Source of the DNA: Confluentibacter lentus
GTDB taxonomy: Bacteria; Bacteroidota; Bacteroidia; Flavobacteriales; Flavobacteriaceae
Direction: 5' to 3'
DNA: 64,000 bases
Assembly: GCF_002806995.1 (NCBI RefSeq)
Contig: NZ_NIHE01000004.1
Span: 1 to 64,000, forward strand
Part shown: piece by piece, positions 8,057 through 53,454 of the stretch
Position numbering within the stretch: position 1 is the first letter of the stretch
Layout: every line of letters starts with the position of its first letter
Position numbers and translations under genes: made by a program
The notes under the pieces: model-generated
Database searches by the model: none
Seen by the model: only the letters and a program-made list of their open reading frames with translations
What the model was told of the DNA's origin: nothing

Positions 8057-11000
8057 ATGAAGAAATTATTACCTCTATTAATTCTTGTAGCTACCATAAT
8101 TTTAAGTTCTTGCAGCAATAAGCGAGAAGGTGCTCCAAAAGTATTAGTGTTCTCTAAAACGGCCGGATTCGTTCATGCCTCTATTCCAGCAGGCATAGCG
8201 GCCATTCAAAAATTGGGCAGCGAAAATGGTTTTGTAGTAGATACAACAACGAATGCTGAGCTATTTAATGAAGACAACCTGAAACAATATTCAACTATTA
8301 TTTTTCTAAGTACTACAGGTAATGTTTTAGACCATTATCAAGAAGCCGCTTTCGAGCGATACATTCAAGCAGGTGGCGGTTTTGTTGGCATACATGCAGC
8401 AACAGATACCGAATATGATTGGGGTTGGTACAATAAATTAGTTGGCGCTTATTTTTTAAGTCACCCGAGAGGTACTCCTGAAGCCGATTTCATTATTAAA
8501 GATAAAAATTTTTTAGCGACTGAATTTTTTACCGATACCGTTTGGCATCGTACCGACGAATTGTATAATTACAAAAAAATCAATCCAGACGTCAACGTAT
8601 TGATAACATTAGATGAATCCACTTATGAAGGTGGTATGAATGGTGATTTTCATCCCATCGCTTGGTATCACGATTTTGATGGGGGTAGAGCATTTTATAC
8701 AGGAGGCGGCCATACAGAAGAAAGTTTTTCAGAAGATTTATTCTTAAAACATATATTAGGCGGCATTAAATATGCCATTGGCGACAATGAAAATCTAAAT
8801 TATAAAAAAGCAACGTCCCAAATTCCGCCAGCGGCAGATCGTTTTTCAAAAGTGATGCTGACTGAAGGTAAGTTTTATGAGCCTACAGAAATGACCGTGC
8901 TTCCTAATAACGACGTACTTATTTCACAAAGAAGAGGTGAAATCATGCTATATAAAGCGGATACTAAAGAAGTAAAAGAAGTCGCTAAATTAGATGTGTA
9001 TTTTAGTTCAACCGCGCCAGGCGTAAATGCCGAAGAAGGTGTCTTAGGATTGCAAAAAGATCCAGATTTCGCAAAAAATAATTGGGTATATGTGTATTAT
9101 TCTCCAACGGGAACGGAAAGCGTTAACAGATTGTCGCGTTTTAAGTTTAAGAATGATGTATTCGATCTTACTTCTGAACAAGTTATTTTAGATGTTGCCA
9201 GTCAACGTGATATTTGTTGTCATACAGGTGGTTCGATTGCTTTTGGTCCAGATGGCTTGTTATATGTTTCAACTGGAGATAATTCAACACCATTCAATGA
9301 ACGGGATGCTAAATATGTAAACAGTGGTTATGCACCTTTAAATGATATTCCAGGTCGTGAGCAATATGATGCCAGAAGATCTTCAGGTAATACTAATGAT
9401 TTACGTGGAAAAATATTAAGAATTAAGGTTAACGAAGACGGAAGTTATAATATTCCAGAGGGTAATTTATTCCCAAAAGGAACTCCAAAAACAAGACCTG
9501 AAATTTATACCATGGGTCACCGTAATCCGTACCGTATTTCCATAGATATGAAACGAAATTATTTGTATTGGGGCGATGTAGGTCCAGATTCAAGAGCTGA
9601 TAGTTTGCAAACACGTGGACCAAGAGGTTATGATGAGGTTAACCAAGCTCAAAAAGCAGGTAATTATGGATGGCCATTGTTTATTGCAGATAATAAACCT
9701 TATGTGGCTTATGATTATGCAACTGGAAAATCGGGAGCACCTTTCAATCCAGAAAAACCAATAAATAATTCTAAAAATAATACAGGTTTAACAGAGCTTC
9801 CAAGTGCAAATCCTGCATTTATTTTTTATGATTATGGAAATTCCGCCGATTTCCCACAGACAACGTCGGGGGGAAGAAATGCCATGGCGGGGCCTACGTA
9901 TTATTCAGATATGTATGAAGGCACCGAAAAATTGCCAAGCTATTATGATGGCAAGCCTATCGTATATGATTGGGTTCGTGGTTGGATGTTTGCCGTACAT
10001 TTAAATGAAGATGGTAGTTTTAGTAAAATGGAACCGTTTGCCTCCGATATTAAATTAAATGCTTTAATAGATATGGAAGTTGGTCCTGATGGCCGTGTTT
10101 ATTTATTGGAATATGGAAATGGTTGGTTTACCCAAAATGCAGATTCTGGATTAAGCTACATTCAGTATAAAGAAGGCAACAGACCACCAGTGATTGATGG
10201 GATTTCATTAGATGTGAATAATGGTAAATTACCTTTAACGGTGACTGCCAAAGTAGATGCCAGAGATAGAGAAAAAGACCCAATGACCTATGTATGGAGC
10301 TTAGGAAATGGAGAAATTAAAGAAACCAAAGAACCAGAATTAAAATTTACCTACGCTAAAGCTGGAGATTATAAAATTACTGTTGAAGTGAAGGACGATA
10401 AAGGAGAAACTGCTTCAAGTCAATCTGTATTGGTTGTAGCAGGAAATTCCAGGCCAGAAGTCAAGATAGATATTATTGGAGGTAACAGTTCGTTCTTCTT
10501 ACCAGGAAGCCAGATTGAATACAATGTCACTGTAACAGATGCCGATGGTAACGAAAAAATAGTAAATGATAATATTTTTGTGAGTGTAGATTATCTAGAA
10601 CAAATAGATAATGAGGAAGATTATCTTGGACATCAAGAAGTTTCGGCTGCTGCAACTGGAAAAGCATTAACCCAAACCATGGATTGCAAGGCTTGTCATA
10701 AAGAAGCAGAAGCGTCTGTGGGACCAAAATATGTGGACATTGCTGAGAAGTATAAAAATGAAAAGCGTGCCATATCTTATTTGCAACAAAAAATTGTTTC
10801 AGGTAGTTCTGGTGTTTGGGGTGAAGTCATGATGCCTGCACATCCAAATATGACATTGGATGAATCTAGCCAAATAGCATCTTATATTATGGCATTGGCT
10901 AATGATGGTGCTAAAAATCAATCGTTGCCAGCTAAAGGAAAAGTGAAGGCAGAACCAAAAAATCCTGAACAACTGATGCGTATTACAGCTACTTATACCG

Positions 11001-11455
11001 ATGAAGGAGAAACAGGTGCTGTTCCATTAACAGGTACTAAATCGGTTATATTGCCAAGTAGCACGGTTGCTTTTAAAGAAGATATGAAAAAAGAAGGTGT
11101 TGGGGTTAGAAACTTTAACGGGGGAGCTATGGCTATTTTAGACCAAGCTAAAGGCTGGTTTGAATTAGGAACTATGGATTTAACAGGCGTTAAGTCCGTG
11201 TCATTAAATGCTCGCTTTTTTAGACAACCACCAAAAGCACAATATAGTTTTGAAGTGCGATTGAACACGCCAGATGGTCCTGTAATAGGTAGAGGGTCTA
11301 TGCCAAAACCAAAAGTAGGGGAGCGTAATGTGATGATTAATGTGCCAATAAAATCACAAACAACAAATGCTAGTTTATATGTTATATATTCAGCATCTGG
11401 CGTTACGGAAGAAGAACCTTCTCAATTAATGTTATCTAACGCAAGTTTTAATTAG
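8057..11455 (+). CDS. Lipoprotein fusing ThuA, PQQ-type sugar dehydrogenase, PKD and cytochrome c domains
   Basis: A 1132-residue exported multidomain protein. The lipobox is ILSSC with Cys19. Domains in order: a ThuA-like domain (about 28-245; phrases GGGFVGIHAATD, YTGGGHTEESF); a six-bladed glucose/sorbosone dehydrogenase-like propeller (about 265-690; GVLGLQKDPDF, DLRGKILRIKV, MGHRNPYRIS); a PKD domain (about 705-800); a mono-haem cytochrome c with CKACH at about 877-881 and a likely Met ligand in MMPAHPNM; and a C-terminal CBM6-like beta-sandwich (about 990-1132). This suggests periplasmic or surface oxidation of a sugar, with electrons leaving through the haem. The true substrate and cofactor cannot be read from sequence. 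It is closed by a strong terminator at 11478. Confidence 0.9.
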   Translation: MKKLLPLLILVATIILSSCSNKREGAPKVLVFSKTAGFVHASIPAGIAAIQKLGSENGFVVDTTTNAELFNEDNLKQYSTIIFLSTTGNVLDHYQEAAFERYIQAGGGFVGIHAATDTEYDWGWYNKLVGAYFLSHPRGTPEADFIIKDKNFLATEFFTDTVWHRTDELYNYKKINPDVNVLITLDESTYEGGMNGDFHPIAWYHDFDGGRAFYTGGGHTEESFSEDLFLKHILGGIKYAIGDNENLNYKKATSQIPPAADRFSKVMLTEGKFYEPTEMTVLPNNDVLISQRRGEIMLYKADTKEVKEVAKLDVYFSSTAPGVNAEEGVLGLQKDPDFAKNNWVYVYYSPTGTESVNRLSRFKFKNDVFDLTSEQVILDVASQRDICCHTGGSIAFGPDGLLYVSTGDNSTPFNERDAKYVNSGYAPLNDIPGREQYDARRSSGNTNDLRGKILRIKVNEDGSYNIPEGNLFPKGTPKTRPEIYTMGHRNPYRISIDMKRNYLYWGDVGPDSRADSLQTRGPRGYDEVNQAQKAGNYGWPLFIADNKPYVAYDYATGKSGAPFNPEKPINNSKNNTGLTELPSANPAFIFYDYGNSADFPQTTSGGRNAMAGPTYYSDMYEGTEKLPSYYDGKPIVYDWVRGWMFAVHLNEDGSFSKMEPFASDIKLNALIDMEVGPDGRVYLLEYGNGWFTQNADSGLSYIQYKEGNRPPVIDGISLDVNNGKLPLTVTAKVDARDREKDPMTYVWSLGNGEIKETKEPELKFTYAKAGDYKITVEVKDDKGETASSQSVLVVAGNSRPEVKIDIIGGNSSFFLPGSQIEYNVTVTDADGNEKIVNDNIFVSVDYLEQIDNEEDYLGHQEVSAAATGKALTQTMDCKACHKEAEASVGPKYVDIAEKYKNEKRAISYLQQKIVSGSSGVWGEVMMPAHPNMTLDESSQIASYIMALANDGAKNQSLPAKGKVKAEPKNPEQLMRITATYTDEGETGAVPLTGTKSVILPSSTVAFKEDMKKEGVGVRNFNGGAMAILDQAKGWFELGTMDLTGVKSVSLNARFFRQPPKAQYSFEVRLNTPDGPVIGRGSMPKPKVGERNVMINVPIKSQTTNASLYVIYSASGVTEEEPSQLMLSNASFN

Positions 11456-11477: not shown

Positions 11478-11503
11478 AAAAGCCCGCTTTATGCGGGCTT
11501 TTT
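11478..11503 (+). terminator. Intrinsic terminator after the ThuA/dehydrogenase gene
   Basis: A 10-bp perfect stem AAAAGCCCGC / GCGGGCTTTT with loop TTTAT, running straight into a T-run, 22 bases after the stop. The A-rich left arm means it could also work on the other strand for the SET-domain gene. Confidence 0.9.
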
Positions 11504-11547
11504 ATTGATTTCTAATTTGTGTATTTGTATTTAATAAGTTTTTACTT

Positions 11548-12162
11548 TTAGCTATTGATTTCTAATTGGTTTTCCTTATTCTCATCATAATAATTGCAAA
11601 TGATTGAATCCAGCATTTCTTTTCCTTCTATAACTTTATTGATTTTATCCCATACTTTAGTGGGGATTATTTGTTTTAAAGGTTGTTCTAATGATGTGAT
11701 TTTATTAAAAACATTGCTGATTTTTTCATCCCATTCTTTATGGTATTTTAATAAATCATCTGGATAAACAATTTTTCTTTCAGTACTTTCGTCAATACCT
11801 TCAAACGGCTTGGAAATGTTTAAATAACCATAATCATCGGTTAATTCTTCACCAGCTTGTATATCTCTTATAGCTATTTCAAAATCATAAGCTGTAGTTA
11901 AGCAGTTAGAATTAAAACTATGGTTTACATAACGCCCATTATCCCAACAAAGAATTAACTTTCCTAGATTGTTTCTATAGGTATAAGTTTCCAATATCTC
12001 TTGGTATATAGGTTCCATTGATTCAAATTCCTTTTTGCTGAACTCTCTGTCCAATTTATCCAATGCCCAAGTAATGGTGCCTGCCGGAATAAGTTTGGTT
12101 GCAAATACACCATATCCAATGGTGTTATTTATGTATCTAACTTCGGTATGAGGATGTATCAT
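11548..12162 (-). CDS. SET-domain protein
   Basis: A 204-residue protein with a compact SET fold, the S-adenosylmethionine-dependent lysine methyltransferase domain. Diagnostic elements are all present: GYGVFAT (residues 17-22), the pseudoknot segment RYVNHSFNSNC with NHS at 80-82, and GEELTDDYGY with the tyrosines at 111 and 113. Residues from about 120 on are a helical tail with no recognised domain. No signal peptide is seen, so it is probably cytoplasmic. It starts 6 bases after the stop of the CapK-like gene, so the two are almost surely co-transcribed. In bacteria such small SET proteins have few known targets; the methylated substrate is unknown. The NHS and YxY elements are intact, which suggests an active enzyme. 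Confidence 0.85.
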   Translation of the reverse strand: MIHPHTEVRYINNTIGYGVFATKLIPAGTITWALDKLDREFSKKEFESMEPIYQEILETYTYRNNLGKLILCWDNGRYVNHSFNSNCLTTAYDFEIAIRDIQAGEELTDDYGYLNISKPFEGIDESTERKIVYPDDLLKYHKEWDEKISNVFNKITSLEQPLKQIIPTKVWDKINKVIEGKEMLDSIICNYYDENKENQLEINS

Positions 12163-12168
12163 ATTATA

Positions 12169-13491
12169 TTAATTGTTATGGTATAAATTCATTATTTTCT
12201 TTCTCTTTCTTGATGACAAAAGAGGTATTTCATTGACATAAAAAATCTTTACAGTTGCATCATCTCCAAGATTTTTTTTAAAAGTATCTATTAAGTCCTT
12301 TTCATAATTAAAATATCCACTGTGTGTGTTTAGTTTTATATGGTACTCACTTTCATTAACTTGAATGAATTGATATTGTTTTATCCATGAAAAATAATCG
12401 AAAAAAACATAGTCAACCAAAAAAGATGAAAATATCCCGCCTTTAGTATTGTAGATTAAGTCCATTTTCCTTCCCTCAATTTTCTTTAATGTTGGAAAAG
12501 CATCCTTTTCTGAGGATTCAAAACATGAAATATCACCAGTATCATATCTAATTATTGGCATGCAATAGTTAAATAAATCGGTAACAATAATTCTTCCTAA
12601 TTCTCCTGGTTCTGCAGATTCATCACTATCCATTTTTAAAATTTCCACATGATAGCTAGCCCAGTTTATATTGAAATTAGAGTTTTCTTTTCCGGGATAT
12701 TGTTGTGCAATTATACCTAATTCTTCGTTTGAATATCTGGAGACTGCATCAACATTAAAATGTTTTTTTAAGGAAAGTTTTGTGTAATCGCTTAGGGATT
12801 CAGAAATAGCAATAATTGAGTTTATTTTTAATTTTGTAAAGGGTCCTAATTTCATTCTCTCAATATATTCACAAATATTTTCTAAGGCCGAAACAGTGCT
12901 AATGATATTTTTTGAAAAGGGATATTTTTGTAGGCTTTTTAAAAACTTTTTTATTTCATCATCGTTAAAATTTGAAACATTAATCTGTTTTGAATTTTGT
13001 TTCCAAGATTTTATTTTGTTGTCCATTTGATAATTGTTGCCCCAAACCTGTAACATATATAGTCTTTCTCCTAAGCTAAAGTTAGCTTTATTGCAAAAAA
13101 ACAATACATCGACCATGTTGCGAATTTCTTTATTGCTGCTTTGATGAAGAATAAATGGAATACCCGTAGAACCACTTGTAGAAACTATTTTATAAGGCTT
13201 ATTCAAGTAAGATTCAGATTTGAAGGCGTTGAAATTTTCTTGGATAATTGTTTTTTTTAAAATAGGAAATTTTTCCAATTCATCTATACCTTTAAATTTT
13301 TTATAAAAAGGTGTTGTTTCTGTAGCATACCCTAAAAGATTACTTATAATTACAGATCTTCTTTCTTGAATATCAGTAATGTTTTTGTTTCCATTTAAGT
13401 ACGCAATTTCTTCGTAATGTTTTTTAATTTTATTTCCTTTGAGAGAATCTAAAATCCAGAAAACATTTTTCCTAATTTTATCTGTAAACAT
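12169..13491 (-). CDS. CapK/PaaK-like adenylate-forming enzyme
   Basis: A 440-residue protein of the ANL (acyl-adenylate forming) superfamily, phenylacetate-CoA ligase/CapK branch. The adenylation P-loop is STSGSTGIPF near residue 108, and the ATP-binding YDTGD motif is near residue 313 within IIRYDTGDIS. The N-terminus resembles CapK-type proteins found in capsule and surface-polysaccharide loci (NLLGYATETTPFYKKF). It is the first gene of a two-gene leftward unit with the SET-domain gene. The coding sequence is particularly AT-rich compared with the neighbouring housekeeping genes, consistent with an accessory origin. The acid it activates is unknown, and no acyl carrier protein or glycan cluster is nearby. 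Confidence 0.82.
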   Translation of the reverse strand: MFTDKIRKNVFWILDSLKGNKIKKHYEEIAYLNGNKNITDIQERRSVIISNLLGYATETTPFYKKFKGIDELEKFPILKKTIIQENFNAFKSESYLNKPYKIVSTSGSTGIPFILHQSSNKEIRNMVDVLFFCNKANFSLGERLYMLQVWGNNYQMDNKIKSWKQNSKQINVSNFNDDEIKKFLKSLQKYPFSKNIISTVSALENICEYIERMKLGPFTKLKINSIIAISESLSDYTKLSLKKHFNVDAVSRYSNEELGIIAQQYPGKENSNFNINWASYHVEILKMDSDESAEPGELGRIIVTDLFNYCMPIIRYDTGDISCFESSEKDAFPTLKKIEGRKMDLIYNTKGGIFSSFLVDYVFFDYFSWIKQYQFIQVNESEYHIKLNTHSGYFNYEKDLIDTFKKNLGDDATVKIFYVNEIPLLSSRKRKKIMNLYHNN

Positions 13492-13686
13492 ACTTGATTA
13501 ATAGCTCGGCTAAAATATATTTTTTATATATATTTTCCTAATTATTAAAATAATTTTACGCTATTATAATAAATGGGCTTATAATACATTTATTTGACTT
13601 TTTTTATATGTTAAAATTCATAATGTATTATTTTAATAGTCCTTGTTGAGGACTATTTTGAGCTATGGCTTAAGTATGTAAAATAT

Positions 13687-13830
13687 ATGAAAAAAACCTA
13701 TATCAATAAACCTAATATAGATTTAGTATTTGAAACCACCTTAGTAGATGAGGTATATACTTTTTTAATAGCAAGTGAAACAAACCAAAAGATCAGAGTT
13801 TTCCAATATAAAAGCCGCTTGTTTAGTTAA
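13687..13830 (+). pseudogene. 47-codon frame resembling the DnaG N-terminus
   Basis: An ATG-initiated frame of 47 codons whose residues 11-23 read IDLVFETTLVDEV, against IDLVFETARVEEV in the dnaG gene 2.7 kb downstream. At DNA level 21 bases (13717-13737) are identical to dnaG 16412-16432, and the match continues more weakly to about 13754. Both copies have the same orientation. The rest of the frame does not match DnaG, and its last 23 bases lie in the terminator hairpin. It is best read as a partial duplicate of the dnaG 5' end left when the GH43 cassette arrived or was rearranged. Expression as a small protein cannot be excluded. Confidence 0.6.
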
Positions 13831-13845
13831 ACAAGCGGCTTTTAT
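13808..13845. terminator. Bidirectional terminator hairpin
   Basis: A perfect 18-bp inverted repeat (ATAAAAGCCGCTTGTTTA and its complement) with a two-base centre. The A/T arms let it act in both directions. It lies 16 bases beyond the GH43 stop on the minus strand and overlaps the stop of the DnaG-like fragment on the plus strand. Confidence 0.85.
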
Positions 13846-13860
13846 AAAAATAGTTATTAG

Positions 13861-15318
13861 TTAGTCTGCTTTAAAATTCCATTTAGAATTATCACTGTTC
13901 ATATCAAATTCACCCAATGTTGGCGTGCTATCTCCTGCAGATATTAACGCTAACTTTTTGTTTGAATTTGGAATGGCTTTAGGCATGATTCTATAAGTGC
14001 CATCTGTCAATTGATCAATGCGCCATAATTGTTCTGGTGCGCCGGTAAACGTTGGAACCGTCACTAATTCGGCATCTGCTGTTGCTGTCAATGCGCGTTC
14101 TGTTCCGGCAATGACTATTTTGTATGATGGAGTGCCTAAAAATCCACTTGCTTCAGGAACCGCAGTTATAGTCCATTTCTGATGCGGACGACCTATATAA
14201 TCTCCTATTCTAACATTAATATTTCCAGTTGGCCAGGTGTTAATCACATCCGATAATTGTTGTGATGGAACGGGCACTATTGGCTCGTTTGCAGCAGCAG
14301 CACCAAATCCACGTGCTGTACGAGGCATTCTAACAAAATCAACAATTAATTCTAAGCCATATCCGCGTCTTTCAGATTCGATTTCATAAGTACCATCTTT
14401 AATATTCTCACCAGCAACTGGCCATCCATTTTTCCATAATAGTGGTTTTATGGCTAATACGCTTCGTCCTCCTTGGTCTAAATCTGCTTCATAATGTAAA
14501 GATACTTTTTCAACACCATCTTCAAGAACCGTACGACCGAAGTGTCCAGCACCGTTTACGCGTCCTCCACCAGAGGAAATGACCATCTTGCCTCCGCCTC
14601 TTAACATGTCTCTTCCCATATTATCAAGGTAAGGGCCTGTTATTTTTTTAGATCGACCAACAACAATGTTATAGGTTGAGTTTGAACCGTCACAACAAGT
14701 GCCGTGTGTGCCAAGAAGATAATACCATCCATCACGATACTCCAAATCGGTAGCTTCACAATCAATAGCGATGTCTAATGCTTCATTTCCTTTTACACGT
14801 TCTCCTGTTTTAGGATCGAGCTCTATTAGGCGAATGTTCCCAAAATAGGTTCCGTAAGATAACCATAAACGTCCATCGGTTGGGTCTAGTAAAAGTCCTG
14901 GATCGATGGCGTCATTGTCTTCCATGTTCTTGGATTCTGCAACCACAATAGGGTCTGTATATTTAAAATCTGGAGATTTTGGATCCAGTGTTTTATTCCA
15001 CATGGTATTTATTTTACCATCATGGCCACCACCTAATCCGCCACCAGTAGAGCCATAGGCAATAAGGTAACGATCTCCAATTTTTATGGCATCAGGAGCG
15101 GCTCCGCCGCCAGGCCTTACACCACCGCTATTCCATGTCCAGCCATCTTCTGATATTAATCCACCTGAGCCTGTCCCAAATGTGTAATATTTTCCATCAC
15201 TTTCCATAATAGTTGATGGATCGTGTATAAATGGTTTTCCAATTTGTGCCATTAATGTACCAGTTAGCGATACTAATAGCATGGCTACTATGCTTATTTT
15301 TTTAATGCTTAATTTCAT
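13861..15318 (-). CDS. Secreted GH43-family glycosidase with C-terminal lectin-like domain
   Basis: A 485-residue protein from the ATG at 15318, which opens directly into a signal peptide ending in LMAQ; the longer frame from 15369 adds 17 residues before it. The N-terminal five-bladed propeller is GH43-like (arabinanase/arabinosidase type): IHDPSTIM carries the catalytic base Asp33, DAIDPGLLLD the second acidic residue, and CEATDLEYRDGWYYL the general acid Glu. From about residue 325 there is a ricin-type beta-trefoil-like region with LWRI and KWTI phrases. It probably cleaves arabinose- or xylose-containing plant or algal glycans; the exact linkage cannot be told. It follows the galactose-binding-like gene by 43 bases on the same strand and ends at the 13808 terminator. 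Confidence 0.85.
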   Translation of the reverse strand: MKLSIKKISIVAMLLVSLTGTLMAQIGKPFIHDPSTIMESDGKYYTFGTGSGGLISEDGWTWNSGGVRPGGGAAPDAIKIGDRYLIAYGSTGGGLGGGHDGKINTMWNKTLDPKSPDFKYTDPIVVAESKNMEDNDAIDPGLLLDPTDGRLWLSYGTYFGNIRLIELDPKTGERVKGNEALDIAIDCEATDLEYRDGWYYLLGTHGTCCDGSNSTYNIVVGRSKKITGPYLDNMGRDMLRGGGKMVISSGGGRVNGAGHFGRTVLEDGVEKVSLHYEADLDQGGRSVLAIKPLLWKNGWPVAGENIKDGTYEIESERRGYGLELIVDFVRMPRTARGFGAAAANEPIVPVPSQQLSDVINTWPTGNINVRIGDYIGRPHQKWTITAVPEASGFLGTPSYKIVIAGTERALTATADAELVTVPTFTGAPEQLWRIDQLTDGTYRIMPKAIPNSNKKLALISAGDSTPTLGEFDMNSDNSKWNFKAD

Positions 15319-15361
15319 CAGTAAATAATTTTTTATAATTGATAATGAATGGAAATTTATT

Positions 15362-16096
15362 CTATTCATAACTAATTGTAATGCCTTTTATTGGTTCTCC
15401 TTTTTCATCAAGGAAGCGAACACAGAAGTCACTCATTCCAGGGCCATTAATGACGGCCCCACGAATGATGTTTTTTCCTTTGTTTAGGGTTAAACGGGTT
15501 GAAACAACATCATCCATAACCATGCGTCTATCACCAGAAAGTAGCGCAGCTTCTTTGCCATTTACCCACCACATAGATGCTGAATTTGATCCAACAGCCA
15601 TTCTAACGTCTTTCATTTCTTCCGGAGAGTTAACTACGGTTACAGCCCAAAATAGAACGCCATAAATCTGTTTGTCTAACCCGAAGGCGAAACGGAATAA
15701 TTTCACATTAAAATTTGTGCTTTCCAAGGCATGCCATTTTAGCTCTTGGTCCCCAACTTTTACTTTGTCGCCATGTTTAGGTATAACGGTAAACTGGTTT
15801 TTAAAATACAAAGTATCAAACGCTTTTCTTAAGTAGCTATCTGTAAAGACAGTATTGCTACGGTTTGGTTTGTTGATTGGTTCTAAGAGTAACCAACGTT
15901 GGATAAAACCGTCCGAATCAGGGGTCATTTTTTTAGTTGTTGCAGGAGTGAAGTAAGGAGCGATGCTTCGTGTGGCGTCAATTTTGGTAGCGTAATCAGC
16001 TTGTCTCTGTGCGAAAGCAGAACTACCTTGTAATAGTAGTACTGCCAAAATTACAAAACCCATCGCTTGTAACAATGTTTTGCGTTTCATGTTCAT
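15362..16096 (-). CDS. Secreted protein of a glycan-degradation pair, beta-sandwich-like
   Basis: A 244-residue exported protein with signal peptide ending in SSAFAQ; ATGs at 16096 and 16090 are both possible. No catalytic motif is recognised. The pattern of short aromatic-rich strands (SASMWWVNGKEA, LTLNKGKNIIRGAVING) looks like the galactose-binding or PA14-like jelly-roll domains that accompany esterases and glycosidases in Bacteroidota. It is the first gene of the leftward pair with the GH43 enzyme, so a role in binding or presenting the same glycan is inferred. No TonB receptor or SusD lies beside it, so the pair is not a full polysaccharide utilization locus here. Confidence 0.6.
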   Translation of the reverse strand: MNMKRKTLLQAMGFVILAVLLLQGSSAFAQRQADYATKIDATRSIAPYFTPATTKKMTPDSDGFIQRWLLLEPINKPNRSNTVFTDSYLRKAFDTLYFKNQFTVIPKHGDKVKVGDQELKWHALESTNFNVKLFRFAFGLDKQIYGVLFWAVTVVNSPEEMKDVRMAVGSNSASMWWVNGKEAALLSGDRRMVMDDVVSTRLTLNKGKNIIRGAVINGPGMSDFCVRFLDEKGEPIKGITISYE

Positions 16097-16393
16097 AGTT
16101 GTTTTTAAAAGTTTTTAATATAGTTGGTATTGAAAAAAAGAGTGTACTTTATTGCAAACATACGAAAAGAATTCTCGCTTTTTTATGACATAACTCATAA
16201 TATTATACTAAATAAATGATGTGCAAAGAGATTCTTTTTTACTTAATATACAGAGAATATTTAAGTTGTTTTTTATTGCTCTTCAATGAGTTTAATTGGA
16301 TTTATCTATAAATAAAATTTCCAAAATAATTTTAAATTTCAATAATGAATTTGTTTGTATTACATTTACAAATCTTAAAAAATCATTCATTTT

Positions 16394-18352
16394 TTGATAT
16401 CACCAGCATCCATAGATTTAGTATTTGAAACCGCCCGGGTAGAGGAGGTTATTGGTGATTTTGTGCAGCTTAAAAAATCGGGTAGTAACTTTAAAGGGTT
16501 AAGTCCGTTTAGTGATGAGCGTTCCCCCAGTTTTATGGTATCTCCCGTAAAGCAAATTTGGAAAGATTTTAGTAGCGGAAAAGGTGGCAACGTGGTGGCA
16601 TTTTTAATGGAGCACGAGCACTTCACCTACCCTGAAGCTATTAAATATCTTGCTAAAAAATACAATCTCGAGATAGAAGAAACCGAACAGAGCAACGAGC
16701 AAAAAGAACATGCCAACGAACGCGAAAGTTTGTATTTGGTAAATGAGTTTGCTAATAGTTATTTTCAAAAAGTACTGCATAAAACCGACCAAGGAAAGTC
16801 TATTGGTCTCAGTTATTTTAAAGAGCGGGGTTTTACCGAAGACACCATTAAAAAATTTGATTTAGGGTACTCTCTGGATGCTTGGCAAGCTTTTACAGAT
16901 GAGGCCTTGAAACAAGGTTATAATATTGATTTCTTAGAGAAAACTGGACTCACGATAGTCAAGGACGATAAACGGTTTGATAGGTTTAAAGGTCGTGTCA
17001 TGTTTCCTATAAAAAGCATGAGTGGTCGGGTGTTGGGCTTTGGCGGACGTATATTAACAAACGACAAAAAGGCTGCTAAATATGTAAACTCTCCCGAAAG
17101 CGAAGTGTACCATAAAAGTAATGTGCTGTATGGTATTTTTCACGCCAAACAAAGTATCGCCAAGGAAGACAATTGTTTTTTGGTTGAAGGATATACCGAT
17201 GTCATACAGTTTCACCAAACAGGGATTAAAAATGTGGTAGCGTCTTCAGGTACGGCATTAACAGCAGAACAGATTAGATTAGTAAATAGGCTGACTAAAA
17301 ACATCACTGTATTGTTTGATGGGGATGCGGCAGGGATGCGTGCCTCCATTCGTGGGATTGATTTGATTTTAGAACAGGGGATGAACGTGAAGGTTTGTAC
17401 GTTCCCTGAGGGCGAAGACCCCGATAGTTTTGCTAAAAAAAATACACTCGAAGAATTGTCTTTGTATCTCGATGAAAACGCCAAGGATTTTATTCAGTTT
17501 AAAGCGTCCCTATTATTTGAAGATTCCAAAAACGACCCTATAAAAAAAGCCGAAACTGTCCGGGATATTGTAAACAGTATTTCTAAAATTCCAGATCGTA
17601 TTAAAAAAGAAATCTATATTCAAGAATGTGCCAGGATTATGGACATTAGTGAAGCCGTTTTATTTAGCACGCTGGCACAAATTAATAAGAAAGATTTTCA
17701 AGAAACTAATACACAATATAAAGCTGAACAAAAGGCGTTTGATGTTATAAAAAACGAACAACCTGTAAAAAAGGTGGATGTTCAATATGTGTTGGAACGA
17801 AAAATTATAGAAGTATTATTGCTTTATGGAAATAAAACCGAAGATTTTGAAGATTTGGTTTTAAAGGAGAACGATAAAGGTGAATTGGTTTTAGAACCCG
17901 TGAAACAAACCGCAAAAGTTTTTGAAAAAGTGTTTTTAGATTTACAGGAAGATGAAATGGAATTTACAAACCCGCAATTTAAAACCTTATACTATACCAT
18001 CATTGATGCTTTAAATCAGAATCCCGATTTCGAACTTAAAACATTTGTTAATATTGTGGATGCCGATATGGGTAATGAAATAACGACTATACTAATGGAA
18101 GATGAGCGTTATAGCTTAGATAATTGGCAACGCATGAATATTTACCCAAAAGATAAAACCCAAAGCGTTGCCCAATTAGTTAGTGAAACCATATTGAGTT
18201 TAAGATGCTTTTTAATAGAACAGAAAGTCTTGGAATTTCAACAGGAAACGTTGAGAAATAAATCTGAAGTTAACAGAAGTGTTCTCGAGGAAGTCAAAGA
18301 CTATTCTGGATTAAAAATGCTTTTATCTAGAAAACTCAATAGAGTACTATGA
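16394..18352 (+). CDS. dnaG: DNA primase with degenerate zinc-ribbon
   Basis: A 652-residue replicative primase. The N-terminal CHC2-like module (1-100) is recognisable from GLSPFSDERSPSFMVSP and DFSSGKGGNVVAFLM, but all four zinc ligands are replaced (Ser37, Ser40, Asp58, Ser61). The TOPRIM catalytic domain follows: FLVEGYTDVIQFHQ, SSGTALT and LFDGDAAGMRAS. The C-terminal about 200 residues are the helicase-interaction region. The start is taken as TTG 16394 because the family begins at MIS and no ATG lies in frame upstream. A box TACATTTA at 16361-16368 is one base from the TAnnTTTG promoter consensus. The 3' end overlaps the convergent response-regulator gene by 6 bases. Confidence 0.95.
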   Translation: MISPASIDLVFETARVEEVIGDFVQLKKSGSNFKGLSPFSDERSPSFMVSPVKQIWKDFSSGKGGNVVAFLMEHEHFTYPEAIKYLAKKYNLEIEETEQSNEQKEHANERESLYLVNEFANSYFQKVLHKTDQGKSIGLSYFKERGFTEDTIKKFDLGYSLDAWQAFTDEALKQGYNIDFLEKTGLTIVKDDKRFDRFKGRVMFPIKSMSGRVLGFGGRILTNDKKAAKYVNSPESEVYHKSNVLYGIFHAKQSIAKEDNCFLVEGYTDVIQFHQTGIKNVVASSGTALTAEQIRLVNRLTKNITVLFDGDAAGMRASIRGIDLILEQGMNVKVCTFPEGEDPDSFAKKNTLEELSLYLDENAKDFIQFKASLLFEDSKNDPIKKAETVRDIVNSISKIPDRIKKEIYIQECARIMDISEAVLFSTLAQINKKDFQETNTQYKAEQKAFDVIKNEQPVKKVDVQYVLERKIIEVLLLYGNKTEDFEDLVLKENDKGELVLEPVKQTAKVFEKVFLDLQEDEMEFTNPQFKTLYYTIIDALNQNPDFELKTFVNIVDADMGNEITTILMEDERYSLDNWQRMNIYPKDKTQSVAQLVSETILSLRCFLIEQKVLEFQQETLRNKSEVNRSVLEEVKDYSGLKMLLSRKLNRVL

Positions 18353-29265: not shown

Positions 29266-29351
29266 ATTATTTAAACCAAAATATGTACTTTGAAGAATTA
29301 AAAAACGAAGCTATTTTTTAACTAAAAAATAGAGTTGTTAACAGTAGAAAA

Positions 29352-29414
29352 GTTAAAGGTTAAAAGTTAAAAGTTAAAAGTTAAAAGTTAAAAGTTAAAA
29401 GTTAAAAGTTAAAA
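29352..29414. repeat. Heptamer tandem repeat GTTAAAA, 8 perfect copies
   Basis: Eight exact copies of GTTAAAA occupy 29359-29414, preceded by one imperfect copy (GTTAAAG). It lies between the 5' end of purH and the 3' end of the GAF reductase gene, outside any coding frame. A short run of related words occurs at 42135-42165. The length is likely to vary by slippage. Confidence 0.95.
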
Positions 29415-29436
29415 GTTTTTCACTTATCTTTCTAAT

Positions 29437-38402: not shown

Positions 38403-38414
38403 TTAGTTTTTTTT

Positions 38415-38489
38415 GTCATTCCTGCGAAGGCAGGAATCTGTTGAATTTATAGTTTAATTTTTTTGTGGATTCCGTATCAAGTGCGGAAA
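38415..38489. repeat. REP-like element in the groES-groEL gap
   Basis: Two hairpins: ATTCCTGCGAAGGCAGGAAT (38418-38437), and GGATTCCG ... GCGGAA around 38467-38488. Together they look like the two halves of a common intergenic palindromic repeat of bacteria. It lies inside the groESL transcript and might shape mRNA stability between the two genes. Confidence 0.75.
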
Positions 38490-42133: not shown

Positions 42134-42200
42134 TTATAAGTTAAAAATTAAAAGTGAAAAGTTAAAAATATAATCAAATTCATATAACTGCTTTTCATTG

Positions 42201-53366: not shown

Positions 53367-53396
53367 AAAACGCTCACCTTAGGTGGGCGTTTTTTT
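53367..53396 (+). terminator. Intrinsic terminator after gldN
   Basis: AACGCTCACC and GGTGGGCGTT pair over 10 bp (one G-T) around TTA, followed by T7, 27 bases after the gldN stop. Confidence 0.9.
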
Positions 53397-53454
53397 GTTA
53401 TCCCTGAGCAGGCAGGAAATCAAAGATTAAACGGAGTTAATCCACTTTTCTAAT

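Follow-up and report, generated by a model that had tools for sequence, protein, structure and literature searches.

A short repeat of the dnaG 5′ end at the edge of a variable gene slot in Confluentibacter lentus

Introduction

Integrative elements that use the 5′ end of a gene as their attachment site are known, as is homology-facilitated illegitimate recombination in natural transformation. Reportedly, Acinetobacter baylyi also undergoes short-patch double illegitimate recombination (SPDIR), i.e., the formation of templated micro-insertions. Here we describe a locus that resembles each of these systems in part. It lies in a 64,000-nucleotide stretch of Confluentibacter lentus (Flavobacteriaceae), hereafter the window (assembly GCF_002806995.1, contig NZ_NIHE01000004.1, positions 1 to 64,000), in which a piece of the start of dnaG, the primase gene, recurs on the far side of a GH43 gene and its partner. 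With modest confidence, we read this piece as a short stretch of 5′ dnaG coding sequence copied to an ectopic site, the right-hand junction of a slot with variable gene content. Most likely it is genomic debris without meaning, and probably it was not left as a scar when the GH43 pair arrived.

As with elements inserting at a gene's 5′ end, a direct repeat of a gene start flanks inserted genes. The locus differs from such elements in that no integrase-like long frame lies between the copies, no second copy scoring above 40 occurs at the other 36 dnaG loci compared and, on the reading that we favour, the copy postdates the flanked genes. The likeness to homology-facilitated illegitimate recombination would be that resident genes lying between conserved flanks give way to a foreign block; that to SPDIR, that a short intragenomic segment sits at an unrelated locus without a mobile element, the difference being that the event is inferred here from a comparison between species.

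Results

The repeat of the dnaG start

Twenty-one bases near the start of dnaG recur exactly and in the same orientation within the window (13717-13737 = 16412-16432), as a sequence-only reading of the stretch had pointed out. Gapless extension carries the match to 38 bases, 33 of them identical, with strand and frame kept (Table 1). The five mismatches are all confined to the final 17 bases of the 38; three codons differ between the copy and dnaG, each with a change of amino acid. The shared protein-level pattern IDLVFET..V.EV, also remarked on in that reading, was likewise recovered, the 47-codon open frame over the copy being in the same reading frame as DnaG.

In a blastn self-comparison of the window the repeat scored 51 and was outranked only by simple GTTAAAA-type repeats (53); heptamer repeats of this type lie at 29348-29417 and 42134-42167. 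Below it stood simple-repeat pairs at 48 and 45, then a pair at 44 within one gene, read as an ABC ATPase, and the rest scored 40 or less. From 1,000 dinucleotide shuffles of a 331-base query, the fitted expectation for a score of at least 51 within 10 kb was 1.4e-5, and one of the 1,000 shuffled queries hit 51 against 461,587 bases. Because the repeat stands out in the self-comparison and its shuffled-query expectation is so low, the 38 bases very probably represent a real duplication. A further candidate part of the duplication, a promoter-region repeat (13540-13592 versus 16316-16368, 72%), was rejected: 306 of 1,000 shuffles were equally good.

The copies are 2.7 kb apart and enclose, as had been described, the GH43 cassette and its terminator. 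The GH43 gene and that for a 244-aa protein are the only long frames between them, with none encoding an integrase or recombinase, and the terminator-like inverted repeat has its arms at 13807-13825 and 13828-13846. A simple terminator scan did not list this element, since the scan needs a loop of 3-8 bases and the loop here has 2. What is found, then, is a short patch nearly identical to another locus, unaccompanied by a mobile element.

Table 1. Coordinates (window positions) and strands of the features discussed
Feature	Position	Strand	Basis or remark
Putative ectopic copy of dnaG codons 7-19	13717..13754	+	33/38, first 21 exact; self-comparison, shuffles
Matching stretch in intact dnaG	16412..16449	+	self-comparison
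dnaG, 652 aa, TTG start, intact	16394..18352	+	94-97% identical to four congeners
Open frame of 47 codons spanning the copy, unlikely to be a gene	13687..13830	+	no convincing relatives; terminator overlap
30-base match to 5′ part of G002 GH92 gene, unexplained, may be chance	13738..13767	+	28/30, same frame as dnaG-like stretch
Perfect 19-base inverted repeat, bidirectional terminator-like, 3′ of GH43	13807..13846	.	
GH43 enzyme gene with ricin-type lectin domain	13861..15369	-	PF04616 5.2e-22, PF14200 2.6e-7
244-aa protein gene, GH43 partner	15362..16096	-	no Pfam or NCBIfam match; signal-peptide-like start by our own reading
AMP-dependent CoA (coenzyme A)-ligase-like (PaaK-like) gene	12169..13491	-	below curated cut-offs
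SET-domain protein gene, same block as ligase	11548..12162	-	
ThuA/GSDH/PKD/cytochrome-c protein gene; hairpin after gene is slot's left end	8057..11455	+	

A variable slot to the left of the cassette

The dnaG copy is not part of the cassette but occupies the right end of a slot (11503-13806) that reaches from the hairpin of the ThuA/GSDH gene to the GH43 terminator. Among C. lentus and four congeners (genomes G001-G004, of which G001 is the sister species) the flanking genes are conserved and the content varies by species: a SET protein and a CoA-ligase-like protein in C. lentus; an AraC-type regulator and a 144-aa protein in G001; AraC, a 141-aa protein and a histidine kinase in G002; a HipA-like kinase and a DUF3037 protein in G003; and a single gene, with a sub-threshold DUF6057 match only, in G004. 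The sister species has unrelated DNA at the slot. The ligase gene had no DNA match in G001 and was missing from the dnaG-side slot of G002-G004, G002 and G004 being without any match at 1e-50.

Two of the five species, G001 and G002, have AraC and the small protein in common, at 84% and 81% identity, respectively. The small protein has no Pfam match, and its 144-aa version was not found in the C. lentus genome, in a search run without a positive control. G001 and G002 are also alike over the 100 bases immediately preceding the GH43 terminator (0 of 1,000 shuffles as good); the same bases of C. lentus do not match significantly those of G001 (79 strict and 351 loose of 1,000 shuffles) or of G002 (335 and 394 of 1,000). 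Because the AraC content is shared by the sister species and G002, parsimony makes it the older, and the SET-ligase block of C. lentus with its scrap of dnaG looks like a younger replacement, exchange between species being set aside.

The GH43 pair and its distribution

The GH43 pair is present in all four congeners. It stands directly beside dnaG in G002, G003 and G004; in G001, whose assembly is fragmented, two contigs are involved: C164 carries the pair, and C224, beginning 62 bases upstream of dnaG, carries that gene. Detection of dnaG succeeded in 57 of 60 relatives, and at all 20 other-genus dnaG loci (L043-L056, L258-L263) the pair was missing within the flank examined. The genes upstream of dnaG differ at these loci, which held no second dnaG start above score 40. 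Fifteen of them (L044, L046, L047, L049-L056, L258-L260 and L263) keep a gene of ~360 aa near and upstream of dnaG, which had no match in the window or in the Confluentibacter loci L040-L042.

Among the best 80 of 472 stretches with relatives of the 244-aa partner, 79 have GH43 after the partner; the remaining one (L244) ends 41 bases past the partner gene. Of the 80, only the two Confluentibacter loci have dnaG nearby. By record title, these partner-GH43 stretches span several phyla. Since GH43 so regularly follows the partner and dnaG is so rarely near, the pair is a travelling unit of wide distribution that has settled beside dnaG, and would have done so before the genus radiated. The 244-aa protein is a candidate accessory protein for this group of GH43 enzymes.

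Second dnaG starts in relatives

A search for second copies covered 37 dnaG loci from 35 genomes, 24 with at least 5.9 kb upstream and 13 with ~1.5 kb, the dnaG contig of G001 being left out. Only the window held a second copy of the dnaG start scoring above 40, and the idea of the dnaG start as a recurring attachment site was rejected on that count. The genomes with the cassette do not carry both copies of the repeat: G002-G004 showed no second start above 40 in the region examined, and the 100 bases beside the terminator did not match the dnaG start significantly in G001 (24 strict and 249 loose of 1,000 shuffles), G002 (216 and 567 of 1,000) or G004 (984 and 998 of 1,000). G003 has a weak 22-mer, weighed below. 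The sequence-only reading had seen here the trace of an insertion or duplication at the dnaG start; a partial duplication, with one intact copy and one remnant, agrees with our results, but a GH43 insertion is not the best-supported cause, given a cassette in all four congeners and a clear second start in none.

Distal DNA of G004 was considered as an ancestral dnaG upstream flank. It matched the dnaG upstream region of genome G010 (0 of 1,000 shuffles as good) and not significantly the dnaG region of G004 itself (256 of 2,000). The candidate was rejected, as the motif recurs between divergent genes at window position 2457 and at its L042 counterpart; we read the stretch shared by G004 and G010 as a promoter motif, and on the minus strand it resembles what we take to be the Bacteroidetes promoter consensus. 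A dispersed TTTGTCATTCCTGCGAAGGCAGGAA-type repeat occurs at 38408-38436 and 53390-53418 of the window and in the dnaG leaders of L040, L041, L042 and L045. Hairpin-like versions of it separate the promoter region of dnaG from its start in G002, G003, G004 and G023, with none at the dnaG leader of the window or in the 62 bases examined of G001.

The 47-codon frame

The last seven codons and the stop of the 47-codon frame fall inside the inverted repeat of the terminator. Its translation was searched against 397 family genomes, a subset of a larger group, for a conserved counterpart beside some other gene, the finding that had been named as speaking against a dnaG remnant; none emerged. The frame found itself at E 1.2e-26 and its best other match at E 0.035, and 106 of the 397 genomes had some match at E ≤10; several of these weak matches are probably DnaG, judging by long frames of ~660 residues. 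There was no match to a Pfam, NCBIfam or PHROGs family, nor, for the region, to an Rfam family at the gathering score.

In a DNA search of the same genomes, matches at E ≤0.001 turned up in 29, and the places spanning the repeat that were read, in C. lentus, G002, G004 and six other-genus loci, are dnaG. A stretch of a non-dnaG gene in genome G396 matches 13713-13744 at 88%, which shows how easily short AT-rich matches arise across 397 genomes. Ligase neighbourhoods were rejected as a source of the frame: 27 were compared (20 with flanks of up to 1.5 kb and 7 larger stretches around seven of the same genes), with only matches of E ≥0.3 besides the window's own. SET and ligase genes also lie side by side in genome G077. 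Between the ligase gene and the frame of C. lentus lies a hairpin, TAGTCC-TTGTTGA-GGACTA, at 13637-13655.

Species relations and the age of the copy

Trees of dnaG, GH43 and the 244-aa gene group C. lentus with G001 (support 98, 98 and 100, respectively). The synonymous divergence (dS) of dnaG from C. lentus is 0.57 for G001, 0.77 for G002, 0.74 for G004 and 1.11 for G003. Age was estimated from half of the pairwise dS, or from the C. lentus share of that dS as given by the dnaG tree (0.23, by our own division), with a simulation that contains no indels. Expected neutral identity is ~0.80 for a copy made after the split from G001 and ~0.61 for one dating from the root of the genus. Taken alone, a score of 51 might still be left by an old duplication of sufficient length (0.33 in the simulation for 200 bases and genus age). 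A perfect run of 21 bases would hardly persist on this model, its probability at genus age ranging from 0.0002 for a 40-base duplication to 0.005 for one of 400 bases. With that range, and with a block found in one species, the old event proposed from the mismatches is not the best-supported dating.

Discussion

We suggest that AraC and its small partner were the older content of the slot, that the SET/CoA-ligase block would have replaced them in the C. lentus lineage, and that a short patch of dnaG would have been copied into the join in the course of this illegitimate replacement, perhaps by short single-strand annealing or by template switching from the nearby dnaG. The 47-codon frame, given this reading, is a chance open frame.

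Several observations weigh against so recent an origin. Just before the GH43 terminator, G003 carries a 22-mer, CAG-ATTCACAGATTTAGTATTT (L041 10056-10077), that resembles the dnaG start; against the C. lentus dnaG start it was equalled by 0 (strict) and 2 (loose) of 1,000 shuffles and, with the comparison widened, by 14 and 17 of 2,000, with 124 and 48 of 2,000 against its own dnaG. Two other, chance windows in 387 kb of Confluentibacter strands score as well or better, from which we estimate a probability near 0.002 that such a 22-mer would turn up in the stretches compared from the four congeners, ~100 bases from each. C. lentus and G003 are moreover alike over the 100 bases preceding the terminator (0 loose and 6 strict of 1,000 shuffles). 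Real AT-rich windows do as well in 30 of 12,190 and 14 of 12,086 cases by the loose scoring (0.12-0.25%) and in 124 of 12,190 and 65 of 12,086 by the strict (0.5-1.0%), own overlaps included. Longer stretches are not alike (79 and 294 of 2,000 shuffles), and the halves are uneven: 39 to 645 of 5,000 shuffles, depending on scoring, equal the terminator-side half, and 6 to 250 the other. These likenesses, which are not independent of one another, would fit an older, shared origin. The GH43 of C. lentus is also as close to that of G002 (0.912 identity) as to that of G001 (0.908), the tree of the gene left of the slot leaves the grouping with G001 open (52/84), and the dS of the 244-aa gene is below that of dnaG in some pairs (e.g., 0.59 versus 0.99 for G002-G003); exchange between species could thus upset the parsimony drawn from the slot. 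Finally, C. lentus is represented by one strain, and the recency of the copy is reached indirectly.

The explanation that gains most from these points is a duplication of the dnaG start in the ancestor of the genus, on entry of the GH43 pair, with a copy that persists in C. lentus and, much decayed, in G003, G001, G002 and G004 having had theirs overwritten. Position and orientation fit such an event exactly, and the pair stands beside dnaG in Confluentibacter and at none of the 20 loci examined from other genera. We nevertheless consider it unlikely, though deserving of attention: the DNA that directly adjoins the terminator in G001 and G002 is common to both and unrelated, neither these two species nor G004 show a clear remnant, the terminators of C. 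lentus and G003 are not alike, and the alignment of the two flanks sets the G003 22-mer opposite ~13738-13760, off the repeat; the perfect run, too, would be improbable at that age.

A join assembled from several donors, here a dnaG patch (13717-13743) and a GH92 gene patch (13738-13767), would account for the match of 28 of 30 bases to the GH92 gene of G002, in which strand and frame are the same. This is distinctly improbable, since chance alone should yield ~0.036 such matches across five genomes, strand and frame not yet taken into account, the G004 orthologue matches at only 25 of 30, the similarity breaks off in the part in which the G002 and G004 genes resemble each other most, and no related GH92 gene was found in the C. 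lentus genome. It is a long shot, likewise, that the bidirectional terminator beside the slot serves as a join for incoming DNA, stitched with short patches of several genes (dnaG, GH92), the slot junctions recording their templates, where even a small RNA or peptide directed at dnaG might be made. A functional product of the 47-codon region, either a small protein mimicking the DnaG N-terminus or a transcript by which GH43 read-through pairs as antisense with dnaG mRNA, would draw on the open frame kept in register with dnaG and on a region that folds better than its shuffles (z -4.75), chiefly via two hairpins. With no convincing relative in the family genomes or match in the family databases, seven codons buried in a terminator stem and codon differences that all change the residue, we regard it as very improbable, in line with the low rank that the sequence-only reading gave a primase mimic. 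Least probable of all is chance similarity between two AT-rich, coding-like stretches: such DNA inflates short matches, as the G396 gene and the one shuffled query that equalled the score in 0.46 Mb illustrate, but the repeat is the best pair in the window besides simple repeats, and its members share strand and frame at a short distance.

On our favoured reading of a short patch copied during replacement of the slot's content, the locus corrects a tempting interpretation, in that direct repeats on either side of a gene cassette are not necessarily its scar. The small, terminator-bounded slot, with content that differs among Confluentibacter species, is a place in which to study the joins formed during gene replacement.

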